From a virus, in the IMG/VR virus record IMGVR_UViG_3300035162_003017, positions 1 to 23,355 of that record: a DNA stretch of 23,355 nucleotides, one strand, 5' to 3'. A program made the position numbers and the translations under genes. Position 1 is the stretch's first letter. Each line of letters opens with the position of its first letter. This document shows positions 791 through 23,355 of the stretch, piece by piece. The notes below the pieces were generated by a model. It worked only from the letters and a program-made list of their open reading frames with translations. It was not told where the DNA came from and did no database searches.

Positions 791-3700
791 TTAGAACGAA
801 CGAGTAGCTCGCGAAGGCCTTTCAATATCCTTGGTTAGCCCCACTGGAACGCCAGTGTTCGGGTCAACTGATCTAGCGAGATACACAGTTTGCTCCGTGG
901 ATGTCCAGTGTAGCATATTACCGGTAAAGTTACCTATGTTAAGCACGCTAACTCCGGATGTATTCACTTGTCCTCCAGTTGCCATCAGGCCAATGGCGTT
1001 ATGCATTATTGACGCCTGTCCAGCGCTTGGTAAATACCAATCACTGTAAGTTAAGCCCGTAGTTGGATCAGTCACACTGTAATCATCAGCAAGTCTTGCC
1101 GCTATACCGGTTTGGTTACAACCTGCGATTATGTCGAGTGTGTTTTGCACTCCATCAGTACTTTGAGCTCCTGGAATATCAGTTCCATGACAACCCCACT
1201 CTGCATTTGCTAGGTTTGTTAACGCTGCGATCCAACCACCACCCATCCCATTCAAGTAATATATAATTCCACCTTGGTGAAGATCACCTATTGCAAGTGG
1301 AGGGTATAAACAAGAACCATCATCAAAATTAGCTGTTGCGTCATAGTTTGTTGCTGTAGCGTCCGTACAACCAAACCAGATACAAGAACCATCATCAAAA
1401 TTAGCTAATGGGTCATAGTTTGACGCAGAAGGATTTGTACATCCATTAACATTAGTATAATAACATGAACCATCATCAAAATTAGATGTTGCATCATAAT
1501 TTATTGCTGTTGGATCAATACAACCAAAGTAAAGACAATTACCAAGAGAAATATTTGCACTAGGGTTATAGTTATCTGCTGTTGGATCCATACAACCATA
1601 GGTTGTCAGGCATGGACTACCTAAATCACAAGTAGCTAATGGATCATAGTCAAATGAAGCGGTTGAAGTACAACCATAAACACAAGCAATACAACTTCCA
1701 TCGTCCATAGTTGCTAATGAATCATAATTAGAATTTACCTGCGGATAGTAAGTGGATCCAGTTGTACAACCATATACTGGGTAGGTACAAGAACCATCAT
1801 CAGTTGTTGCTGATGGATCATAGTTTAACGCTGTAGAATCTGTACAACCATTTACTATAAGAGTAATACAAGAACCATCATCTGTATTAGCTAATGGATC
1901 ATATTCTGTATATAGTGCGTTTGTACAACCATTTACAACCGCAATACAAGAACCATCATTAGTATTTGCGTTAGGATCGTAATTAAACGCTGTAGAATCA
2001 GTACAACCATCTAATACAGCTATACATGAATTATCATCTACATTAGCTAGAGCATTATAGTTAAAAGCCGCACTATCAGTACAACCTAATACAACCGCAA
2101 TACAAGAACCATCATCAACTGTAGCTGATGGATTATAACCTATTGCCGTTGGATCCGTACAGCCAAGCCAGTAACAAGAACCATCATCTGTGTTAGCTAA
2201 TGGATCATAGTTTGACGCAGAAGGATTAGTACAACCATACGTAAACGGAATACATGAACCATCATCTGTATTTGCATTAGCATCATAATTGAATTGAGTT
2301 GGATCTGTACAACCATTTATAGGTGCAGGTGCTGGTGCAGAAGTAATTCTTCCAAGCCCTTGAATTGAAAGACTGCTTAAATCAAAGTTAGAAAGTGGTT
2401 TTGGATTTAACGTTTCTCCAGGCAAAAGATATTGTCCAGCTAGCTGTATCTCCTTTCCTTTTATGTAGTTAAACCATTTTCCTTCTTTTTCTATAAATTC
2501 ACTTACCGCGCCAACCTCTTTGTTTGTGAATATATGGTCAACGTACCACCCTTTTTTGTCATGTAGGTTGTAGTATTCTCCGTCTGAAAGCCCCGTTGTT
2601 GGATCAATTAAAAACTGATTAACCTTAGATTGGCTCCCTTCGTAGTTTATAGTGTTAAATGATTTAGCACTACCAGGAGCGTCGTTTAGGATAACATTAA
2701 AAGATGAATTTTTAGGAATATTGTAAAAAGTATTTCTACCAATTTCTTTCCCCAAGACATCAAACTCCTCAACGTGGTGCAACCAAGGGGTAGCGCCTTT
2801 GAATGTGTAATACTCATTAGCACAGCTAATAGCATTATCTGGCACGAATGACTTAAAACTAACCCAACCTTTAACATCTTCTTTAAACGAGACGGTTAAA
2901 CCGCTAGGAAAATGGTTTGCATCAACAACTTGTTTTAAAGTTATGTTATACTCGCTTTTCTTATCATCATGACTACCTGTTAAAATACTGTTTAGCTTTA
3001 AGTTATCCTTAAACCAGTCTTTCATTCCATAGTTAGATATAGCTGTTAAACCGTCTTTGGATAAACGCACTACCGCTCCTCTGACTCTGTCGGTAAAGTA
3101 AGCCCTGTAGCTTTCCGATGCAAATGATTCTGGGTTTTTAGATATACCAAAATTACCGCTAAAAGGCACTGCTTGCCCAAGAACGTTATTGCTAGCTATC
3201 AACTGCGGGTTTCCATCGGCATTATACAGAGCATCTTTATTTGCTAGAATTTTTAAAATCCTATCTTCACACAAAACTATTAGATCGCCGTCAGCTGTAG
3301 ACCTTGAGTGGAGTTTTTGAATACTACCATACACTGGGTTTACATCTTTAGTTATTTTCTCTGCTTGAATAAATTGATTTAAATTATTCACACCGGAGGT
3401 AGAGTTGTATATACCGGAGTATATCAACCCGGTTTTTCTACGCTCCTTTTTGTAACCACCACTCAGTGTTGTAGATACTTTAACTCCATTTGATATGAAT
3501 GGGGAGTTAAAAGTGTCTTTGATCCTATTTGATTCAACACCATTCCCAAAAGAATAGCAATTGTGCCAGTTTAAATTATACTCAGCGTTGGATAAAGATG
3601 GCGACAGAATAAGGTTTTTAGCTATTGTTGGGGTTATTAAGTTAGGAGTCCAACCAGCCACTTTTACACTAAATTGTATTCCGTTAGGTTTTGTTATCAT

Positions 3701-6700
3701 CAATACGTCTCCAACCACCACCGGCGTTGTACCGTCAGGAGCTAAGCCTGGGCCAACCCAGAAAAATTCCGACACACGTATCTCTTGTCCAGACGCAGAC
3801 GAGTTGCTAGTTACATACACGTTATTCCACGTACCTCCATTACCCGAAACACCCACTACGGTAGAATCTTGAGGTATTGCTGCTTTGATAGTCTGCGTGT
3901 TAAGCTCAGTCGGATTGTTCTCGCTTATCTCGTAGTAAATATCTAAGTCATTATTTTTTTTAGGCTCTGTCTCCCATACAAAAGGGTTTTCTGGTAGATT
4001 TCCCCCATCACTATACTCATCAACAGGCTCCATAAACACCATGTCATAACCAACAGCTCCGATCTTCCCTAAAGGATTTACACCATTATCCGACAATGGC
4101 CCATTTACTTGCCTTGCATCAGTATTATCCTCTGTAAAATTACTCGCCCCATTCATAGATACTTGGTAGAATTCCAATCCCTCACCAATTACAAAGTCAA
4201 CTGACAAGTTGCCGGCGGCGAAAGTGGTGTTCATTGGGTTTTGGTACCCCGCCAAGGTGAGTTTCCAACCACTCACGTGGGGTCTTATCTCTTTTATTAT
4301 AACGTCATGGGCAATATCTACACTGCTATCTATATTATACGCATGAAGCTTCATTCCCTCGTGAAGGCTGTACAAAGGCTTTAGAGTGTTTCCATTGCTA
4401 CACTTTGTTGTTATGTTGTCGACCACTATGTAGTTCTCTCTTGGCTGCGCTGTGTTACCAGCTAACCCAAACATATGTTCTTCTACTACTCTTATTTGGA
4501 ACGCGCTTCTAAAAGGCTGACCCGCAGATATCCCACCGGTAGCAGCTGGCTCAATAGTTATTTTATTGTTTTGTAAGTCTACACTAGTAACTTTAGAGTC
4601 CAAAGGAATATTTGTGTTAATACCAACGGACATACCTACTTGTATAGAGGTAACATCATCTAGTGTTATAACTACATCTCCACTACTTACGGCTATTGCA
4701 ATAGGTCTTGTCGTGTACATCCCAGCTCCCAATTTCAACCCATTCATCATACCTGCTTGCCCTGAATACGTGCCTACTGGTGCACTAGGATCCCAACCAT
4801 CCATAGATGGAGTCACTTTAAATCCAAACGTTTTAGTGTAAGACGACGGGGCTCCAATCAAGAGTTTAGTTTGTCTTATTTTATCCGCAAAATAGCAATC
4901 AAGCCCCTCATCAAGCCTCCCAAACCTTAAGTTTCTTTGGTAAGAGGTTTGTCCTTCAACTTTATATATCGTTTCCGTTGGGTCTTTTTTCCATCTAAAA
5001 CTAAATCCAGCACTTAAACCATCAACAAACTTAGTGGTTGCGGCATCGTTCCATCTAGTATTACCCATACCCACACCGTAAAAATTATCCAGAGAGCTTT
5101 CGGTATATTGATGGTCACCACAGTCAATATTTGCTTTCCAATCAGCCTCAGCGTAAGGATCACCAAAACCTCCAAACCCAAGTTCTATAAACGAGTTGTC
5201 GTTTGCCACATCATGAGTTATACCATTACCAATCTCTCCCGCCACCCCAGTGTAGCCACACGCGGCAGCATCCTGACACTGTGGAGAGAACATGTCGTTC
5301 ATGCCATTTTGGTCTAGCCACTTAAATTCATTATCTCCTTGTATTACTTCATATTTTTTAGTTGACCTATCTATAAACCAAACCCCCATATCCTTAAGCG
5401 TATTCGACCCTTGAGAGCGATATGAGTGCAGATGGTTAAAGGCAACGCTGGGTGCGTTGGCATTGCTTGGGGAGTAACTCTTCCATGAGGTAGCATCAAA
5501 GAAATACGTTTCTCTAGCAGCAAGGTGGTTAAAGTTAAGGCCGCCAGGGTTACGAGCAAGATCAACAGGCACTAATGGGTCGGTTGTATAATCAAGTGTG
5601 ATATAGTTGAGCGCGGGAGATGCATTATCTGGGGATTCGTATAAAGCTGACTGCGAGACGGTTCGAAGTTTATCGTCATCCTCTAGAGCGTAAACCGTTT
5701 TATGAGCTACATCTATATAATTTACACCAACCGCATCATCTGTTATTTGTGTTTGAATTTTACCATCATTTTCAATTTTAGCAAAAAACCTACCGTCAAA
5801 CTTCGGCTTATTCTCTACAACGGCTTTTGTGAACACAATCTTAATGTCATCAACTATCTTTGTTGGAGACGCGGCGTTGTCAAATATGAAATTTATATCA
5901 CCCTTGAAAGCGGTGTCAAGTGTTACGTGGTAATTTCCCGGATTAGTAGCTGCTGGAGCATTATTTACATCAAAGTCAGATGTGATTTCCGAGATTTTGT
6001 ATTGGTCAGAGTAATCGACTGAGCTAACAAACTGTATATATATATCCTCTTTAATGTCCTCTATTTTAGATAAGCTAGTTCCATAAAAACCACCTCCCTC
6101 ATAGTCCATTGTAAATGACGCCGACTTCACGTGTGGAGCCGCGCTAAAATCACCAAAGACTTCAGCCGAACCCTCGTAGTGTGCAACCGCACCTATTCGT
6201 ATCCTTCTTGTTTTAATGAACTCTGGCGCTTCATTTTCTATAGCTAAAACCTTGTATTTTGTAGAGTTTTCAATAACATTCTCGTCGCCCTCTACCCCTC
6301 TCTTAAAATACAAAGAGGTTTCTAAATCCATTTTATTCCTATCGGAAGAGGGGAATGCTAACCATAAGTTACCATCTTCCGCTTTGTACCAGCGGTCCAT
6401 CGCTAAGTTGTAATACTCGTTAGAAGTCTCTTTTACATAAAACTTATAGTAAGTCATTTCAAGCGGCGTTTGACCTTTGAGTTTAACTTTCAGCCTATTT
6501 GCGTTTATAGAGTTTTGTTTTTCTACCCTAAAACCACCACTTTCACCAATTAGAACCGGTGTTTCCCTCCCGTGTTCATCCGTAAAAACAACGCCTAACT
6601 TATAATCTCTTAAAGATTTTATTGATTTTCTTGGGCTAGCGCTTGTTGGCGGAGCCCAGTTAATTAGGCTGTTTGAAAAATCAGGTCTATAACTTTGACC

Positions 6701-9481
6701 TTGACTCTTTAGATTATAGTTTTGCTCGTAATTAGCGTATATTACTCTGTTACCACTAATACTCTGCGCTAGAGCTTTTTTAGGAACGTTATCCCACGGT
6801 CTTAAGAGTTGGTTAGAGGGAATTATTCCTTTTATCGTTTCTGATTTTATTAAATACTCGTTAGAGTACCAGGGTAGTTTATTATTTTGGCTTGTAAGTA
6901 CGTCTACAGGGCTAATAGTCTGGACAAGGTATATGTTTGGTGAGCTATCTTCCTTATATAATATATCCACTTCAACTATATCCTTGCCCAATGGAGAACC
7001 CCACGTTGTGCTGTAAAAGCCTTTGACTTTTATGGATCTAACGTTGTTGAGCATTCCGGTGTTCCACCCTTTTTTAGGTTCATAATCAAATCCAGAAGGC
7101 AAGAATGCCACTTCAGACCACGGCGCAAAAGTTGAGTATTCCCCGTCCTCATATTTATATCTATAAGAAAACCTAGGAAACTTGTCCTCAAATATAACTG
7201 GTTGAGTATCTTCTAGGTCGACAATATAATACAAAGGATCGTTTGGTAAAGATGGATCCGGCGATCCCGGGGTTCCATTAATTCCTACCACTTGTATCTC
7301 TACTTGGACGAAACTCGCTACTGTATTTTCAAAGCTATTTAAAGGGGACTCTGTTATCAAACCCCTTATAGTCCAATTTACCAAGGGAACATTATCTGCG
7401 ATACCATTGCTAAATTCTTTTAGCAATAAATAACCCCCTTCTTCCCATGCAAAATCAAGATTTAGGTTAGCACCGAGGTGGTCTTCTTCTATGAAAAAAC
7501 TAACCGTATCTCCAATTGCCAACGCACTAAAGTCTAAACTAACAGCGTTATTGGAGGAGTTTATTATTGACGTGATGTTTGAGCTGGTACCCACTTGTGT
7601 GCGACCTGCATAACTTAGCGAAGGGTCTCTACCATTGCTAAGCTCTAGGTTTAAGGCATTTTTTGGTGCTTTTCTTATAACTGTAATGTGCTCTTCTCTA
7701 ATGGGGTTGTAATCGTTTGTTAAATCATACCCCGCACCTTGATTAACAATAGCGGTGTGTATCTCGCCACCCACGTCCGTACCCTGCGCGCTTCTAGTGA
7801 TATTTATTTTCTTAGGTTCAGTAAAATTATCTGTCCAAAGTAACACGTCATCAATGATATCAATACCAGTGATCAACTTATCGTGCTCAAAATTTAGCGC
7901 TCTTTCTGACTCAAAGCAGACAGTGTCCACGCCATTCATATTAACTATCTCATTTAATATAATACCCTCTATATCGTTCCCTATAATATTAAAAGTTACA
8001 GGTTTCCCGGTTGTATCTGGGATTATCACCCCTGGTGCTAGCCCTAAACCAGTGTCACAATCGATTATTGCAAATTCCGAATCGTAGATCCCGGCCGCTA
8101 TATCAAGATTAGCGGCATCGATAACAGATGCTGGGTCAATACATGAGTTAGGAGGAAAATTATACCCAGACCCTATATTGTTATCAACCTGCAATTGAAC
8201 CCCAGCAATCAAGGTCCCACTCGCGTCATAAAGCGAATTATAAATCTCATCCAACCATCCCACCGAAGCAGCCGCAACATTTATGTTGTTGTTTGTTACA
8301 GACGTGTATGCTGTCGTGGTAATTGGAACAATTGTAGCCTCTAACTCGTAAAATGGAAAAGCATCTCTTAATTGTGTCCCCGTAGCAATTAAAGCTGCTT
8401 TCTGCCATATACCAGAGTTATAATTGTTACATCCGAATGTGGCACCAAGGGAATCACTCCAGCAGCTATTGACTCTATTCGGAAAACCATCTGGGCCAAG
8501 TATATCTCCAACTGTTATTATCCAAGCTTGTATGGGTTGAAAGTTAAAAGGGTGAATAACTTGGCCTAAGAAGATGTCATTAACCGTTATGCTAGGAAAA
8601 CCATTTAATACATTCGCACCCACGTTGAGAGCGTGGTAAGGTGGAGCACCAATATTTTGAATCGTACTACCTATTGTTATATTGTGTTGAGCGGGTAGGT
8701 CCGATACAGGTATCCAAAATTGAGACGATCCTTCTGGAGGTAAATTTGCTTGTGATATTGGCGCGCCTGTTGTATCCACCGTAGAATCATAATGGATGTT
8801 AGTATAATCTTGCGTGGTGTCATTCCAAAAACCCCTAATGTGCATGGTGGTATTGTCTGCGTCTGAGATGACAATTTGTGGTGGAGTAAAGGGGGTGCCA
8901 GTAAAATTGAAATTATTATAGTAATTAACTGCCAGTGTGGTTATGTTGCCAATACCAATCACTGGTGTAGGTCCGAATAAATTAATGTTGTTACCGTAGC
9001 CAGTAGCTGTCATACCCGCCGTCACCTGTGCGTACAAGCTACTATCTATTACTATGGAGTTTGTTAAATTACTACCTGCTGAAATTCCAACACAAAACGA
9101 GTAGCTATCAACAAAGATAGGATCGCAAAGCTGTGAAGAAACATCAAGGCGTACTATTAAGTCTTTTAGACTAACTGTTTCATTAACCGCTAGTTGTTGT
9201 CCGCCTACGTCTACGGGTCCAGATACAAGCCAATATAAAGAATCATTTTTTTCATCTGCAACAGAACCCACCACGTGCGAACCATCTTGTATGTAGTTGC
9301 CAGTGTTATTAATACACCCGTTTGTGTTTCCTAATATATTTTGAATAGTACCAACATCAGATCCCTCTGAGGTTGAAACCTGTATGTTCATCGCATCTCT
9401 ATACTCTCCGTTGGGAACAAGTCTTTCGTCCACGTCCTTGTTCATCTTACCGCCGGTAAACTGGTGTTTAATTTCTGGCAT
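791..9481 (-). CDS. Giant tail muzzle/stabilisation-type protein with C-terminal adhesin-like repeats and lectin-like domain, 2,896 aa
   Basis: This is one uninterrupted frame. The N-terminus (about 8-50) carries 'FTGGKMNKDVDERLVPNGEY' followed by an 'STSEGSDVGTIQNILGN' block. I recall this from P22 gp10-like stabilisation/muzzle proteins of crAss-like and marine Bacteroidetes phages. Later blocks typical of that body include 'DDVLLWTDNFTEPKKINITR' (~540-560), a 'SYRYKYEDGEYSTFAPWSEV' segment (~770-790), 'LRDYKLGVVFTDEHG' (~956-970), 'SIQKLHSRSTADGDLIVL' (~2052-2070), 'AYFTDRVRGAVVRLSKDG' (~2124-2141) and 'EGKWFNYIKG' (~2332-2341). An Ala/Pro hinge leads to thirteen Cys repeats (2390-2724) and a ~170-residue domain with 'HQGGIIYYL', 'YSDWYLPS' and 'HWTSTE'. 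It follows the connector genes with only 3 bp between. The protein would form the distal tail opening and display a binding module. Gene certain; muzzle role probable; receptor binding inferred. Confidence 0.85.
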   Translation of the reverse strand: MPEIKHQFTGGKMNKDVDERLVPNGEYRDAMNIQVSTSEGSDVGTIQNILGNTNGCINNTGNYIQDGSHVVGSVADEKNDSLYWLVSGPVDVGGQQLAVNETVSLKDLIVRLDVSSQLCDPIFVDSYSFCVGISAGSNLTNSIVIDSSLYAQVTAGMTATGYGNNINLFGPTPVIGIGNITTLAVNYYNNFNFTGTPFTPPQIVISDADNTTMHIRGFWNDTTQDYTNIHYDSTVDTTGAPISQANLPPEGSSQFWIPVSDLPAQHNITIGSTIQNIGAPPYHALNVGANVLNGFPSITVNDIFLGQVIHPFNFQPIQAWIITVGDILGPDGFPNRVNSCWSDSLGATFGCNNYNSGIWQKAALIATGTQLRDAFPFYELEATIVPITTTAYTSVTNNNINVAAASVGWLDEIYNSLYDASGTLIAGVQLQVDNNIGSGYNFPPNSCIDPASVIDAANLDIAAGIYDSEFAIIDCDTGLGLAPGVIIPDTTGKPVTFNIIGNDIEGIILNEIVNMNGVDTVCFESERALNFEHDKLITGIDIIDDVLLWTDNFTEPKKINITRSAQGTDVGGEIHTAIVNQGAGYDLTNDYNPIREEHITVIRKAPKNALNLELSNGRDPSLSYAGRTQVGTSSNITSIINSSNNAVSLDFSALAIGDTVSFFIEEDHLGANLNLDFAWEEGGYLLLKEFSNGIADNVPLVNWTIRGLITESPLNSFENTVASFVQVEIQVVGINGTPGSPDPSLPNDPLYYIVDLEDTQPVIFEDKFPRFSYRYKYEDGEYSTFAPWSEVAFLPSGFDYEPKKGWNTGMLNNVRSIKVKGFYSTTWGSPLGKDIVEVDILYKEDSSPNIYLVQTISPVDVLTSQNNKLPWYSNEYLIKSETIKGIIPSNQLLRPWDNVPKKALAQSISGNRVIYANYEQNYNLKSQGQSYRPDFSNSLINWAPPTSASPRKSIKSLRDYKLGVVFTDEHGRETPVLIGESGGFRVEKQNSINANRLKVKLKGQTPLEMTYYKFYVKETSNEYYNLAMDRWYKAEDGNLWLAFPSSDRNKMDLETSLYFKRGVEGDENVIENSTKYKVLAIENEAPEFIKTRRIRIGAVAHYEGSAEVFGDFSAAPHVKSASFTMDYEGGGFYGTSLSKIEDIKEDIYIQFVSSVDYSDQYKISEITSDFDVNNAPAATNPGNYHVTLDTAFKGDINFIFDNAASPTKIVDDIKIVFTKAVVENKPKFDGRFFAKIENDGKIQTQITDDAVGVNYIDVAHKTVYALEDDDKLRTVSQSALYESPDNASPALNYITLDYTTDPLVPVDLARNPGGLNFNHLAARETYFFDATSWKSYSPSNANAPSVAFNHLHSYRSQGSNTLKDMGVWFIDRSTKKYEVIQGDNEFKWLDQNGMNDMFSPQCQDAAACGYTGVAGEIGNGITHDVANDNSFIELGFGGFGDPYAEADWKANIDCGDHQYTESSLDNFYGVGMGNTRWNDAATTKFVDGLSAGFSFRWKKDPTETIYKVEGQTSYQRNLRFGRLDEGLDCYFADKIRQTKLLIGAPSSYTKTFGFKVTPSMDGWDPSAPVGTYSGQAGMMNGLKLGAGMYTTRPIAIAVSSGDVVITLDDVTSIQVGMSVGINTNIPLDSKVTSVDLQNNKITIEPAATGGISAGQPFRSAFQIRVVEEHMFGLAGNTAQPRENYIVVDNITTKCSNGNTLKPLYSLHEGMKLHAYNIDSSVDIAHDVIIKEIRPHVSGWKLTLAGYQNPMNTTFAAGNLSVDFVIGEGLEFYQVSMNGASNFTEDNTDARQVNGPLSDNGVNPLGKIGAVGYDMVFMEPVDEYSDGGNLPENPFVWETEPKKNNDLDIYYEISENNPTELNTQTIKAAIPQDSTVVGVSGNGGTWNNVYVTSNSSASGQEIRVSEFFWVGPGLAPDGTTPVVVGDVLMITKPNGIQFSVKVAGWTPNLITPTIAKNLILSPSLSNAEYNLNWHNCYSFGNGVESNRIKDTFNSPFISNGVKVSTTLSGGYKKERRKTGLIYSGIYNSTSGVNNLNQFIQAEKITKDVNPVYGSIQKLHSRSTADGDLIVLCEDRILKILANKDALYNADGNPQLIASNNVLGQAVPFSGNFGISKNPESFASESYRAYFTDRVRGAVVRLSKDGLTAISNYGMKDWFKDNLKLNSILTGSHDDKKSEYNITLKQVVDANHFPSGLTVSFKEDVKGWVSFKSFVPDNAISCANEYYTFKGATPWLHHVEEFDVLGKEIGRNTFYNIPKNSSFNVILNDAPGSAKSFNTINYEGSQSKVNQFLIDPTTGLSDGEYYNLHDKKGWYVDHIFTNKEVGAVSEFIEKEGKWFNYIKGKEIQLAGQYLLPGETLNPKPLSNFDLSSLSIQGLGRITSAPAPAPINGCTDPTQFNYDANANTDDGSCIPFTYGCTNPSASNYDPLANTDDGSCYWLGCTDPTAIGYNPSATVDDGSCIAVVLGCTDSAAFNYNALANVDDNSCIAVLDGCTDSTAFNYDPNANTNDGSCIAVVNGCTNALYTEYDPLANTDDGSCITLIVNGCTDSTALNYDPSATTDDGSCTYPVYGCTTGSTYYPQVNSNYDSLATMDDGSCIACVYGCTSTASFDYDPLATCDLGSPCLTTYGCMDPTADNYNPSANISLGNCLYFGCIDPTAINYDATSNFDDGSCYYTNVNGCTNPSASNYDPLANFDDGSCIWFGCTDATATNYDATANFDDGSCLYPPLAIGDLHQGGIIYYLNGMGGGWIAALTNLANAEWGCHGTDIPGAQSTDGVQNTLDIIAGCNQTGIAARLADDYSVTDPTTGLTYSDWYLPSAGQASIMHNAIGLMATGGQVNTSGVSVLNIGNFTGNMLHWTSTEQTVYLARSVDPNTGVPVGLTKDIERPSRATRSF
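794..1300 (-). other. C-terminal DUF1566/Lcl-like (putative C-type-lectin fold) domain of the giant tail protein
   Basis: The last ~170 residues after the Cys repeats hold 'IGDLHQGGIIYYL', 'EWGCHGTDIPGA', 'QNTLDIIAGC', 'YSDWYLPSAGQ', 'NIGNFTGNMLHWTSTE' and 'LARSVDP', and end RPSRATRSF. This is the pattern of the DUF1566 (Lcl C-terminal) family as I remember it in Bacteroidetes surface proteins, where 'YSDWYLPS', 'WSSTE' and 'VRAVR.F' are the landmarks. The family has been linked to C-type-lectin folds and is used as a binding domain. At the tip of a virion protein a host-surface binding role is a reasonable inference. The ligand is unknown. Confidence 0.7.
1310..2314 (-). repeat. Thirteen-copy cysteine repeat array (GCTDP..NYDP.A..DDGSC) inside the giant tail gene
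   Basis: Thirteen in-frame units of 24-32 residues, mostly 24-27, run head to tail over 335 residues. The consensus is GCTDPTAxNYDPxAxxDDGSC followed by a 3-6 residue spacer. Copies 8-10 are irregular: copy 8 has an extra segment, and copies 9 and 10 lose the DDGS box but keep the cysteines. Each copy has a leading and a closing Cys, suggesting one disulfide per unit once outside the cell, and Asp/Asn-rich loops that could bind calcium. This motif is known to me from secreted Bacteroidetes proteins. Copies 2 (2165-2236) and 12 (1373-1444) are closest in DNA sequence. Confidence 0.92.
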
Positions 9482-20071: not shown

Positions 20072-20349
20072 TATTTAGATCTTCCTTCTGCGAATCCTTT
20101 GAATGTTTTTTCCTTCTTATCCTCTGGTTCTTTTCCTTCTAGTAAATTCTCTTCTTCTTCTATTCTATTAAGTATTTCAAATGCATCAAATATAGCTAGC
20201 TTCTTTGAAGCCGCCGCGTTCTTTAACTTGTCAGCTGTTAGGTCATCTTCAGAGTCAGTGACAATTGCTTCTTTAGCTACCTTAATTAACTCTTCAACTG
20301 CTTTGTGCCCAGCTTGGATTATACTCTTCTTCGTCTCCTTGATGTTCAT
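20071..20349 (-). CDS. Candidate terminase small subunit, 92 aa
   Basis: I chose the ATG at 20349 (MNIKETKKSIIQAGHKAVEE). The upstream codons in frame run back inside the preceding gene and have no fitting leader, but an earlier ATG at 20436 would give 121 aa. The protein is predicted all-helical: two helices at ~1-25 and ~35-65 ('DKLKNAAASKKLAIFDAFEI'), then a charged tail with 'EEEENLLEGKEPEDKKEK' ending FKGFAEGRSK. It overlaps the end of the GroES-like gene by 56 bp and the terL start by one base. The tight coupling to terL and helical make-up suit a small terminase, which binds DNA and feeds it to TerL, but there is no clear helix-turn-helix. Function is inferred from position only. Confidence 0.6.
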   Translation of the reverse strand: MNIKETKKSIIQAGHKAVEELIKVAKEAIVTDSEDDLTADKLKNAAASKKLAIFDAFEILNRIEEEENLLEGKEPEDKKEKTFKGFAEGRSK

Positions 20350-20884
20350 ATTTGATTGTAATAAAATTAGATTTAACTCGATATAGTCTTTCGCCATCAA
20401 CGATAAACTCGTATTCACTACTTGGTCTAAAACCAACTAGATCGCTTACTTCTACAGTACCATCAGAGAATTTAACGATACCTTGTAAAGGGTTTTCAGA
20501 TTCAATATTAAATTTATCCACTGCTTTCAAGGGCATTACAAAACAATATCCCTTAGGGCAAATCCATTCCGAATCTCTTTTATATAAAAAGATCTGGTCT
20601 TCACCTATAAAGTAAGTTGATTCATTAAAATAGCTTCTGCTATTCTTTTCAATTCCTTTTACGTTGTGCCATCGTCTAAAAACGTTGTGATGTACCAGTA
20701 CAGTATCGCCAGCTCGTATGTCAGCATGACCTACCAATGGAGTTGCAGTTACCGTAGCTTCTCTATTAACAAACTCGTGGTTGAAGATCTCAGTGTTTAA
20801 TATAAGCTCTCCGCCGTCTAACTGTTTAGTGTTGTTGTATCTTTCTCCTTTTGGCGTTACAACAAAGTCGTGAACGCTTTTCAC
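20294..20884 (-). CDS. GroES-fold-like (chaperonin-10-like) protein, 196 aa, GTG start
   Basis: The start codon is GTG, sharing its first G with the preceding stop (TAGTG). After an opening 'KSVHDFVVTPKGERYNNTKQ' come 'NREATVTATPLVGHADIRAG', 'DTVLVHHNVFRRWHNVKG', 'ESTYFIGEDQIFLYKRDSEW' and 'CPKGYCFVMPL' (~37-120). This resembles the GroES beta-barrel with its 'V..GD.V....' turn and mobile loop. The last third ('GIVKFSDGTVEVSDLVGFRP', then 'FIVDGERLYRVKSNFITIKY') is a second beta-rich unit ending 'EEYNPSWAQSS'. Phage co-chaperonins of the gp31 type help the host GroEL fold the capsid protein, and a place beside the head genes suits that. The family call is only moderate; it may instead be a structural beta-barrel protein of unknown role. 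Confidence 0.5.
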   Translation of the reverse strand: MKSVHDFVVTPKGERYNNTKQLDGGELILNTEIFNHEFVNREATVTATPLVGHADIRAGDTVLVHHNVFRRWHNVKGIEKNSRSYFNESTYFIGEDQIFLYKRDSEWICPKGYCFVMPLKAVDKFNIESENPLQGIVKFSDGTVEVSDLVGFRPSSEYEFIVDGERLYRVKSNFITIKYEHQGDEEEYNPSWAQSS

Positions 20885-21105
20885 TAGTATTGTAAGTTAT
20901 ATTCTACAGAGACAGCCATGTTCTTGTTAAAATCTTTCCAAGGCAGAACATCTTTACCTTTCTTGATGTAAACAGAGAACTTGTTGTCTTCTTCTATGAT
21001 ATCACAGATAGTATGACCACCATACACTTCTTGCCCCACGGCATAGTGCATAGCGTCATTCTTATAGTCTTTACCTATAGATATTTTACGAATCAGCTTC
21101 GACAT
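20884..21105 (-). CDS. Small hypothetical protein, 73 aa
   Basis: This 73-residue protein begins MSKLIRKISIGKDYKNDAMH, continues 'YAVGQEVYGGHTICDIIEED', 'KFSVYIKKGKDVLPWKDFN', and ends 'VSVEYNLQY'. Predicted beta-rich, with a basic N-terminus and no membrane segment. I recall closely similar short proteins in marine Bacteroidetes-phage genomes near terminase genes, none with known function. It overlaps the upstream gene by 20 bp and the downstream GTG start by one base, so it belongs to a compact co-translated block. I would not guess a role. Confidence 0.75.
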   Translation of the reverse strand: MSKLIRKISIGKDYKNDAMHYAVGQEVYGGHTICDIIEEDNKFSVYIKKGKDVLPWKDFNKNMAVSVEYNLQY

Positions 21106-21373
21106 CGTAATTTATTGTTCCGTCTTGTATGTTCACATCCACGGTTCCGTATTCCTTCTTGAGCTCTTCTTGTAATACAGCTAACTCATCTTTTACTCCA
21201 GCTAGTTGATGTAATACTTCGTGCTTTCTTAATTCCATACCACCAATCTCTATTTGAGCTCGGTTCATAGTGTTAACTGTTTCTTGAACTTTATTCAACT
21301 GCTCTGCAGTGATTTTTTCAGGCTTTACACCTTTAAGTTCTTTAATTTTTGCGTTTGTTCCTTTTGTTGCCAT
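21086..21373 (-). CDS. Small helical/coiled-coil hypothetical protein, 95 aa
   Basis: The start MATKGTNAKIKELKGVKPEK is Lys-rich. Residues ~20-80 form a heptad-like helical stretch ('ITAEQLNKVQETVNTMNRAQ', 'MELRKHEVLHQLAGVKDELA', 'VLQEELKKEYG'), likely a coiled coil. The end 'VDVNIQDGTINYDVEADS' is a small beta-like, acidic tail. It resembles small helical proteins I have seen in marine phage genomes just upstream of terminase genes. It could be an accessory packaging or assembly protein, but there is no motif that decides. It follows a 28-bp A/T leader with repeated AATTT pentamers and overlaps the next gene by 20 bp. Confidence 0.75.
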   Translation of the reverse strand: MATKGTNAKIKELKGVKPEKITAEQLNKVQETVNTMNRAQIEIGGMELRKHEVLHQLAGVKDELAVLQEELKKEYGTVDVNIQDGTINYDVEADS

Positions 21374-22179: not shown

Positions 22180-22572
22180 TTATTTTTTTACTTTTTCTAG
22201 TGATCGTCCACCGAAGTAGGCACCGATCACGGTTATTAATACTAATTGTAATAAGTCTACCCACGAGGATTTAACCTCAAACTGAATAATTCCAGCATCG
22301 ATAAATATTAATAGAACTGTCGATACTACTAGAAATATTAGAACTAGTGGTCTTATATTTTTACTAAGCCATGAATCGGATTGCATATCCATTTTCCAAC
22401 GCTCAGTTACTTGTTTTTGCATTTCTGCTTCATAACCCATTACTAGGTCTTTGATCTTTGCTTCTGCCGCTAACTTCTCTTCCTTCGACGTAGTTAGGTT
22501 ATCTAGAACTCCTCCTACGCTTTCTACAAGCTTAGCTGCTCCACCTGATAGTATTTTAGTTAGGATACTCAT
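22180..22572 (-). CDS. Holin-like membrane protein (3-TM GTA/phage holin family), 130 aa
   Basis: The end of the protein carries two membrane helices: 'IRPLVLIFLVVSTVLLIFID' (~73-92) and 'WVDLLQLVLITVIGAYFGGR' (~104-123), separated by a short charged turn. In front is 'WKMDMQSDSWLSKNIRP', a landmark of the GTA_holin_3TM-type family, and an N-terminal amphipathic helix (1-28) that could be the third membrane-associated segment. Such proteins make holes in the inner membrane to time lysis. There is no endolysin gene beside it in the window. Its stop codon is followed by 4 bp before the next gene, and its ATG overlaps the preceding stop (TAATG). It could also be another small phage membrane protein, but the motif pattern is good. 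Confidence 0.8.
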   Translation of the reverse strand: MSILTKILSGGAAKLVESVGGVLDNLTTSKEEKLAAEAKIKDLVMGYEAEMQKQVTERWKMDMQSDSWLSKNIRPLVLIFLVVSTVLLIFIDAGIIQFEVKSSWVDLLQLVLITVIGAYFGGRSLEKVKK

Positions 22573-22805
22573 TAGTAACCCGCTTTCCTCTCAGCCTTGA
22601 CTTTCTTCAAAGCTTTAGCTATTTGTGATTTTGATGGTTTTTGGACATCATAATCGTTTATAGCATTCTCTATAGCCTGTTCCCTGTCTTCAAAATCTTG
22701 GCTAGCACTATCAGTGCCAACTGAGCGATTAGTTTCTGGACCTGCTTTTTTTGTAACTGGTGAATTCCCAAAATCCATCCCTTTCATTTTGTATGGTGTT
22801 TTCAT
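22572..22805 (-). CDS. Small basic hypothetical protein 'MKTPYKMKG', 77 aa
   Basis: The 77 residues open with MKTPYKMKGMDFGNSPVTKK, a form I recall at the start of many short marine phage proteins of unknown function. They continue with a polar stretch and a helical basic end ('DVQKPSKSQIAKALKKVKAE', RKAGY). No membrane or catalytic feature. It lies between the zincin-like gene (3 bp gap) and the holin-like gene (one-base overlap), so it is part of the same transcript and perhaps of the lysis or virion-associated group. Confidence 0.7.
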   Translation of the reverse strand: MKTPYKMKGMDFGNSPVTKKAGPETNRSVGTDSASQDFEDREQAIENAINDYDVQKPSKSQIAKALKKVKAERKAGY

Positions 22806-22808
22806 AGT

Positions 22809-23258
22809 TTATTTGTTTCCGTTGTTAGCGTCATCCTCCCAAGGAAAACCAGTATCTCCAGCTTCCTTCCATTTACCGTCTACTAATATAGAGTCTACGC
22901 CATCAATGTCTTGTCTTTCAAATCTCTCTCCATTATACATGATATGATCATCATCATAAGCCAGTTTACCTAACTTCATATCCGTAGCGTGTCTCATTTC
23001 GTGATTAATCACTTGTCTGTACTCTGCCCCGTTAGGATCAAGCTTATTACTTACGAATATAGTTCCATCCATATTAGCTTCTCCTAGTATTTCAAATTGA
23101 TCTCCATCCCCAAGAGACTTAGCTATAATAGGTGTTCCAGGAATAGTGGCTTGTTGGTTTCGCCTAAAACTAAGTTTAGTTTTAATCTCACCGTTACCAG
23201 CTTGAAAGCCCATTTCCTTCCCCATCTTAAACCCGGTGCTTTTCTTGAAGTTTGGCAT
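22809..23258 (-). CDS. Zincin-like protein with HEMRH motif, 149 aa
   Basis: Residues 86-90 read HEMRH, matching the HExxH zinc-binding motif of metallopeptidases, in the context 'YRQVINHEMRHATDMKLGKL'. Further candidate ligands lie in 'AYDDDH' (100-105). The preceding region ('GTPIIAKSLGDGDQFEILGE', 'ANMDGTIFVSNKLDPNG') is beta-rich, like the small N-terminal sheet of zincins. The end has 'MYNGERFERQ', 'VDGKWKEAGDTGFPWEDDA', a pattern I recall in short marine-phage proteins of this kind. No signal peptide is present. It may be a peptidase acting on a virion or cell-wall component, or a non-catalytic zinc protein; neither substrate nor activity can be read from the sequence. It starts 1 bp after the upstream gene's stop. 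Confidence 0.65.
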   Translation of the reverse strand: MPNFKKSTGFKMGKEMGFQAGNGEIKTKLSFRRNQQATIPGTPIIAKSLGDGDQFEILGEANMDGTIFVSNKLDPNGAEYRQVINHEMRHATDMKLGKLAYDDDHIMYNGERFERQDIDGVDSILVDGKWKEAGDTGFPWEDDANNGNK

Positions 23259-23259
23259 A

Positions 23260-23355
23260 TTACCTATCTTTATCTTTTATCATATCATCTATAGATTTAT
23301 TGAAAACCTTGTCAGTATATGTTTTGTTGTTATAGAAAACACTTCTCTCTGAAGT
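23260..23355 (-). CDS. C-terminal fragment of an unknown protein (5' end outside window)
   Basis: The frame is open from the window edge to a TAA at 23260-23262, giving 31 residues that end 'KVFNKSIDDMIKDKDR'. The stretch is helical and charged, and the stop is one base before the next ATG (TAATATG), the same tight spacing as elsewhere in the operon. Too little is present to name it. Confidence 0.6.
   Translation of the reverse strand, partial: TSERSVFYNNKTYTDKVFNKSIDDMIKDKDR

Follow-up and report, generated by a model that had tools for sequence, protein, structure and literature searches.

A small HExxH protein encoded near a phage holin gene is a likely zincin with a possible role in lysis

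What does a 149-aa protein with an exact HExxH motif do for the phage that encodes it? The question is raised by one gene in the window, the whole 23,355-base virus record IMGVR_UViG_3300035162_003017, which is most likely a fragment. A sequence-only reading had placed this protein, here called the zincin, two genes upstream of a holin-like gene, and the order zincin, 77-aa ORF, holin agrees with that (Table 1). The stop codon of a 146-aa ORF is separated from the zincin ATG by a single base. The holin reached 22.7 bits against Pfam GTA_holin_3TM (PF11351), below the cut-off of 24.8. The same reading saw neither an endolysin nor a head-maturation protease in the window, which fits our library matches (10 proteins per library) for what is most likely a partial genome. 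The terminase, portal and capsid proteins matched PHROG models. The nearest named relatives of the terminase were found in phage record ctfjg026 (62.8% identity) and in Flavobacterium elemo phages (about 45%), and among the matches listed were Cellulophaga and Tenacibaculum phage terminases at 31–38%, some of these phages belonging to the Pachyviridae. Of 14 candidate stretches in genome contigs, one held a relative of the zincin; it belongs to a Sphingobacteriales MAG. The named terminase relatives together with this MAG point to the host of the window's group, probably a Gram-negative member of the Bacteroidota.

Table 1. Positions in the window of the zincin gene, its predicted parts and the adjoining genes.
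Feature	Position	Strand	Basis or remark
Zincin ORF, 149 aa	22809..23258	minus	ATG start
HEMRH, residues 86–90, predicted zinc-binding and catalytic motif	22989..23003	minus	invariant in 55-row alignment A2
FPWE, residues 138–141; E141 is the predicted third zinc ligand	22836..22847	minus	conservation in A2; C-terminal helix of model
N-terminal region, residues 1–39, low model confidence	23142..23258	minus	pLDDT
N-terminal tag MPNFKKSTGFKMG, zincin residues 1–13	23220..23258	minus	homologue comparison
77-aa ORF with zincin-type tag (MKTPYKMKGMDFGNSP)	22572..22805	minus	between zincin and holin
Holin, 130 aa	22180..22572	minus	PHROG 3427, E=8.5e-30
146-aa ORF, 3' end, cut at window end	23260..23355	minus	conserved; winged-helix look by eye

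An HExxH motif alone is weak evidence of a zincin, since a second one (HEVLH; HELxH in some relatives) lies in a coiled-coil-like 95-aa protein at 21086–21373 of the window; the 17 late-strand genes counted encode 7489 residues in all, for which 0.10 such motifs were expected by chance and two were found. We scanned viral contigs with the window protein and obtained 352 relatives among 361 candidate stretches, the best 80 of which were kept; loci L083–L161 lay mostly on the same contigs as this set and were not recounted. A viral scan with a diverged zincin member gave 307 relatives, and distant members were added through a motif pattern, a scan anchored on the 146-aa ORF and the scan with the diverged member. 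In alignment A1 (39 rows, the window and 38 of the 80 loci), H86, E87, H90, D93 and F138–E141 were kept. In alignment A2 (55 rows, down to 26% identity, with 10 of 58 non-redundant anchored-set proteins left out), only H86, E87, H90 and E141 were invariant, and P139 and W140 were conserved in at least 90% of rows. Because most A2 rows had been selected by a regular expression that requires HExxH, the motif was counted again by homology alone with the A2 profile. The results showed a zincin homologue in all 80 clade-1 loci, 70 of the 80 anchored loci and all 80 clade-2 loci, and an HExxH followed by a later [WH]E in 229 of these 230 loci, which are not independent events because some of them share contigs. 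The one exception (L335, from 2532 onward) reads EEMIH and has no first predicted zinc ligand. HExxH matches at three loci (L326, L335, L375) belonged to the 95-aa family and were removed from the zincin count, which fell from 66 to 63.

The conservation across homologue loci argues that HEMRH is not a chance occurrence, and the predicted active site is kept while the remaining zincin sequence varies. The sequence-only reading had made its proposal depend in part on the conservation of these H and E residues, and the count shows them conserved. By the motif that defines the zincin group the family is thus predicted to belong there, and the conserved downstream glutamate, as the predicted third ligand, places it with the gluzincins at the level of conservation. 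Single-sequence tblastn with the window zincin, and likewise with the copy at locus L223, gave no match in the phage collection. Other small HExxH proteins occur in Cellulophaga phage phi13:2 (103 aa, L189, 1328–1639) and Tenacibaculum phage Gundel_1 (127 aa, L190, 41131–41514), both without a match to the A1 profile.

The zincin was modelled by AlphaFold2 fed with A2. Mean confidence per block was 88–95 over residues 41–140, apart from 78 for residues 51–60, and 75 over residues 141–149; 35 residues were below 50, nearly all within residues 1–34. The pLDDT values below 50 covered residues 1–39 in model 1 and 1–34 in model 2. In the model the HExxH motif sits on a helix (78–95), followed by strands between residues 99 and 132 and by a last helix (139–146) that carries E141. 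Foldseek searches of the PDB with the zincin models gave no match below E 1. By title, 43 of the 50 matches listed by VIA-align were zincins, including four titled only 'transcriptional regulator', which we took to be zincins. The best was PprI (8sln, Z 6.0, rmsd 3.5, 81 residues), and the others included IrrE (3dti, Z 5.9, rmsd 5.4, 90 residues), 6mdx (Z 5.0, rmsd 4.0, 82 residues), abylysin (4jiu, Z 4.6, rmsd 3.0, 71 residues) and selecase (4qhj, Z 4.3, rmsd 4.2, 75 residues). According to the VIA-align guidance a best Z of 7–8 is typical even for models without a clear match, so these scores prove nothing alone and the run of zincins is a hint. Searched against a library of viral models, the first zincin model gave two matches below E 0.001, and several SprT-like proteins stood among the next ones.

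Known families were approached only distantly. A1 members weakly matched 12 Pfam families, of which we take seven to be zincin families, by name or recall, and five not; among the 39 members, the matches were to M91 (17), M90 (9), eCIS_core (7), SprT (3), M35 (2), DUF6782 (2) and DUF2268 (1). The Peptidase_M91 and M90 matches cover the HExxH region, with a best E of 0.0033 for M91 among these members. The window protein itself reached no curated Pfam or NCBIfam cut-off: it scored 14.3 bits against 25 for Peptidase_M91 and 11.3 against 26.2 for M90, and M78, SprT-like and eCIS_core were likewise below cut-off or unlisted. Although IrrE and PprI, which belong with ImmA to the M78 group, gave its best fold matches, it had no match to the family model (PF06114) up to E 1, and the best diverged member scanned (L264) reached 18.4 bits against a cut-off of 22. 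A clade-2 relative (L439) matched PHROG 16532 (8.2e-11) and 10499 (1.1e-9), both of unknown function, and 87, a metallo-protease (4.3e-4); for the window zincin the first two gave E=0.13 and 0.17. A PDB search with the A1 profile found no sequence relative, only the unrelated 3cjp at E=0.2.

Minigluzincins are gluzincins with a zymogen form, in which the compact domain is inactivated by its own C-terminus. The solved examples abylysin (4jiu), jannalysin (4jix) and selecase (4qhh) are soluble zincin domains of 104–108 residues, with VIA-align Z of 4.6, 3.9 and 4.2, and the window zincin fits them in size. It differs from them by the modelled strands between the HExxH helix and the glutamate helix and by its N-terminal tag. 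The earlier suggestion of a minimal phage zincin is made likely by the HExxH, the invariant downstream glutamate and the mostly zincin fold list, with scores that stay modest. The accompanying remark that the protein is too short for known families holds only in part, given the lengths of the minigluzincins. Taken together, the model makes a zincin fold likely, and the fold comparison leans, with modest scores, to compact gluzincins.

In six mapped contigs the genes run, with local differences, in the order GroEL, GroES, 146-aa ORF, small ORFs, zincin and holin, and downstream of the holin come p95, p73, a GroES-like gene and the terminase, portal and capsid genes. A holin homologue starts no more than 0.7 kb after the zincin in 78 of the 80 clade-1 loci; of the two exceptions, L071 is cut and L078 has a holin-like ORF there by eye. 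In clade 2 the holin follows the zincin in 77 of 78 loci. It abuts or overlaps the zincin in 59 of the 77, starting at most 4 bases past the last zincin codon, and 43 of these 59 have the same 8-base overlap of holin and zincin stop (as called), L392 being an example; the other 18 holins start 247–2017 bases beyond. Record G030 keeps its zincin away from the usual locus, 1.3 kb downstream of an M15 gene (PHROG 894 'endolysin', E=7e-30). Three ORFs separate the two genes, one with a lipobox, one of 90 aa and a hydrophobic one of 82 aa; by eye, the last resembles ORFs beside clade-1 zincins. A crude spanin scan (lipobox plus C-terminal hydrophobic stretch) found no late-strand candidate in the window and eight zincin-bearing contigs. 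Over all 12 sources it gave two candidates, both opposite to the late strand (G012, G022), the lipobox ORF of G030 lying outside the scan; as zincin-less contigs also had no late-strand candidate, the scan does not discriminate.

Two further small proteins recur in this neighbourhood. A hydrophobic holin-like protein of 70–85 aa stands beside the zincin, in differing contexts, at six loci (L042, L053, L056, L072, L077, L471) and is a candidate second holin or antiholin. Seven loci (L036, L038, L042, L054, L068, L079, L080) have, between zincin and holin, a small protein with a GYHTH...GYMGG..H-like motif, whose C-terminus is often rich in Gly and Ser.

A peptidoglycan-cutting endolysin or a head-maturation (prohead) protease were the roles named in the sequence-only reading, and the window shows no other candidate for either. 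For a lysin, the phages related by terminase are informative: ctfjg026 (UOF82502) and elemo (gp35) encode an M15 peptidase in the stretch that precedes the p73, GroES-like and terminase genes, so the window zincin sits in a region where these relatives keep a lysin, theirs being of another family (PF08291, PF13539). We scored M15_3 (PF08291) in records hand-picked as long or zincin-less. One set of 16 virus records contained it in 4 and a second set of 37 in 19, with six records common to both; the MAG of L082 also had it, though not on the contig of its phage locus. Combined, 19 of the 40 zincin-bearing virus records had it and none of seven zincin-less ones. The 21 zincin-bearing records in which it was not found, a point in favour of the endolysin role, are probably fragments, and contigs without it often end 31–46 kb downstream of the zincin, about the expected M15 site; the long record nearest to the window (G001), one of the 21, stops about 39 kb beyond its zincin. 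For clade 1, four of the six mapped contigs show the M15 gene at the far end of the late strand, about 40–48 kb away from the zincin and on its strand. Among the 55 clade-2 loci that extend more than 1.5 kb upstream of the zincin, 35 have an M15-type ORF, recognised by motif, 280–1106 bases before it, and PF08291 placed the M15 gene 0.5–0.7 kb upstream in five of seven clade-2 records, about 35 kb away in one and nowhere in another; in G026 the distance is about 24 kb upstream. Amidase_2 was found in none of 22 records tested. The co-occurrence with M15_3, in clade 2 often less than 1.2 kb away, speaks against the zincin as sole endolysin; it may be a second lytic activity beside the M15 peptidase. 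A prohead protease is expected among the capsid genes, and the zincin gene stands by the holin, with the terminase, portal and capsid genes further downstream. Ten of the 80 anchored loci, moreover, had no zincin homologue. In L342 (G023) the zincin is at the usual place just beyond the anchored stretch, in L357 (G030) it is about 43 kb away, in L347 none was found within the anchored stretch, and in seven whole contigs (L317, L326, L336, L349, L365, L366, L375; 7.8–62.5 kb) no zincin was found, an absence that is not proven because these contigs are probably fragments. The position by the holin and this apparent absence disfavour a prohead protease, although the zincin may process another virion protein. 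We consider it very improbable that the zincin is the endolysin or the head-maturation protease.

The best fold matches, IrrE and PprI, suggest another role, that of an ImmA/IrrE-type regulator protease cutting a DNA-binding protein, possibly the product of the adjoining 146-aa ORF. This ORF is upstream of the zincin in all 43 clade-1 loci with more than 1 kb upstream and ends 0–917 bases before it in 68 clade-1 loci, and a zincin match in phage OC is annotated as an ImmA/IrrE family metallopeptidase. The L223 copy of the ORF matched PHROG 17028 (unknown function, E=1.7e-9) and no Pfam family; the label 'MarR' is given by eye. The two genes do not stay together, however: in four clade-2 loci inspected by eye (L392, L425, L439, L464) several ORFs and more than 1 kb separate a 146-aa-type ORF from the zincin downstream of it, in G030 the distance is about 43 kb, and two isolate-type records carry homologues of the ORF (35.9% and 27.9% identity) and, by the A1 profile, no zincin in the stretches read. 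A regulator protease is thus distinctly unlikely in our view. A different possibility starts from the N-terminus, since an M-x-F-K-[LM]-type start was found in 223 of the 230 zincin homologues; of the other seven, five begin with MPNFKKS[TG]GFK like the window and two (L018, L437) are cut at the contig end. All 63 zincins first extracted from the anchored set start with M-x-[FY][KRS][LMI], in one case only once the sequence is trimmed to an inner start. A tag motif, [FY]K[ML] together with any of nine residues, was chosen after such ORFs had been seen. Of the non-redundant ORFs of these loci, 34 of 261 near ones and 31 of 280 far ones carried it within residues 1–32, whereas shuffling gave 3.4 and 3.3; within residues 33–64 it occurred in no near and two far ORFs. 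Near and far ORFs did not differ (p = 0.51). The ORFs were made non-redundant by a simple k-mer rule, and some hidden homology may remain. An MPNFKK-type start is common to ten non-redundant ORFs, and on the coding strand of the window the tag is carried by the zincin and the 77-aa ORF only, plus one antisense ORF. By motif, then, dozens of small proteins of these phages that are otherwise unrelated share an FK[LM]K/G tag. In three whole zincin-less contigs, by comparison, no ORF was judged truly tagged (four motif matches in all), which is suggestive of a link between tag and zincin. As a mark of zincin presence the tag was tried at locus level and rejected (33 of 63 versus 1 of 7, p = 0.107, not significant). 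The number of tagged ORFs also varies among contigs: the zincin-bearing G028 has six, G024 about one besides the zincin, G004 and G001 about one each, and G012 none on the late strand; the scan takes the longest ORFs and misses some zincins, including those of G001 and G024. If the tag were a packaging signal, the zincin would be packed into the virion and injected, to cut a host protein early or to trim the tagged cargo. The N-terminal enrichment, the near-universal tag on zincins, the unstructured residues 1–34 of the model and the three contigs with neither zincin nor tagged ORFs are in favour of such a virion cargo, but the zincin is grouped with the holin and often with M15 genes rather than capsid genes, the locus-level link is not significant and other tagged ORFs are few or missing in some zincin-bearing contigs; on balance this is somewhat unlikely. 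Rather unlikely, too, is a broader cargo system in which the shared tag sends the small proteins and the zincin to one place, the virion or the lysis site, with the zincin as cargo or as trimmer of the tag. Phage T4 combines capsid-targeting tags with a prohead protease, and a tag-trimming zincin would be a metalloprotease counterpart of that arrangement.

We tentatively favour an accessory lysis protease, a reading to which we give close to an even chance, because a holin follows the zincin in two divergent clades and an M15 gene lies just upstream in much of clade 2. The protein would be a minimal gluzincin with H86, H90 and E141 as zinc ligands and E87 as catalytic base, its catalytic domain of about 110 residues (40–149) standing behind a flexible N-terminal tag. 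Encoded in the lysis part of the late operon, it would be made together with the holin. No secretion signal was noticed by eye in the window zincin, so it would collect in the cytoplasm until the holin opens the inner membrane and lets it reach the envelope. There it might cut an envelope protein, a peptidoglycan-anchored protein or a lysis protein, and in this way assist the M15 peptidase and the holin in completing lysis of the Gram-negative, probably Bacteroidota, host.

Analogies from other phages and bacteria fall on both sides of the lysis-protease reading. It is favoured by a distant match in phage Melnitz (gp69, E=3e-4), four genes after a GH108 gene, by the G030 zincin near an M15 gene, and by two precedents: a phage-derived metzincin is reported to raise the sensitivity of Listeria to phage lysis (PMC8235301), and a metallopeptidase of the VgrG2b kind is reported to act as a periplasmic toxin that disrupts bacterial shape (PMC6899460). 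Against it, a gene neighbourhood can arise from co-transcription alone, and the 146-aa ORF and the tagged small ORFs share this one with no known lysis role. The nearest match in phage pT24 stands among baseplate and head-completion genes, and that of phage OC has no clear lysis neighbour, since the nearest lysis-related gene, a putative rIII, is at a distance of about 2.4 kb. The distant M15 gene of clade 1, the 21 records without M15_3, the lack of Amidase_2 in the records tested, the modest fold scores and the Foldseek result in the PDB likewise weigh against it.

Lysis genes of flavobacterial phages have been described, and phage Molly is reported to encode a zinc-dependent metallopeptidase of 199 aa that includes a lipoprotein domain (PMC8776804). 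One survey gives unimolecular spanins only for Bacteroidetes phages, and by word count its main text contains none of the words metallopeptidase, metalloprotease and zincin (PMC12596118). Within the library and terms used, and among the papers listed, our literature search recognised no description of the zincin family or of the FK[LM] tag. The relatives of the two members used as queries, from one scan each, would form a large uncharacterised family of phage zincins, linked with genes for lysis in several settings. Should the zincin act on the envelope, it would assist the disruption of the outer layers as a protease. The shared tag could point to a sorting signal that tailed phages use.

Other features of the group were seen along the way. 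Its phages encode GroEL and GroES (L082, 2757–4566; L223, 5543–7361; L472, 21–1830), plus a second GroES-like protein, which in the window lies at 20294–20884 (PHROG 13932). The 2896-aa late protein at 791–9481 of the window carries in its C-terminal part, by eye, many cysteine-bearing repeats of the type GCTDPxAxNYDPxAxxDDGSC.
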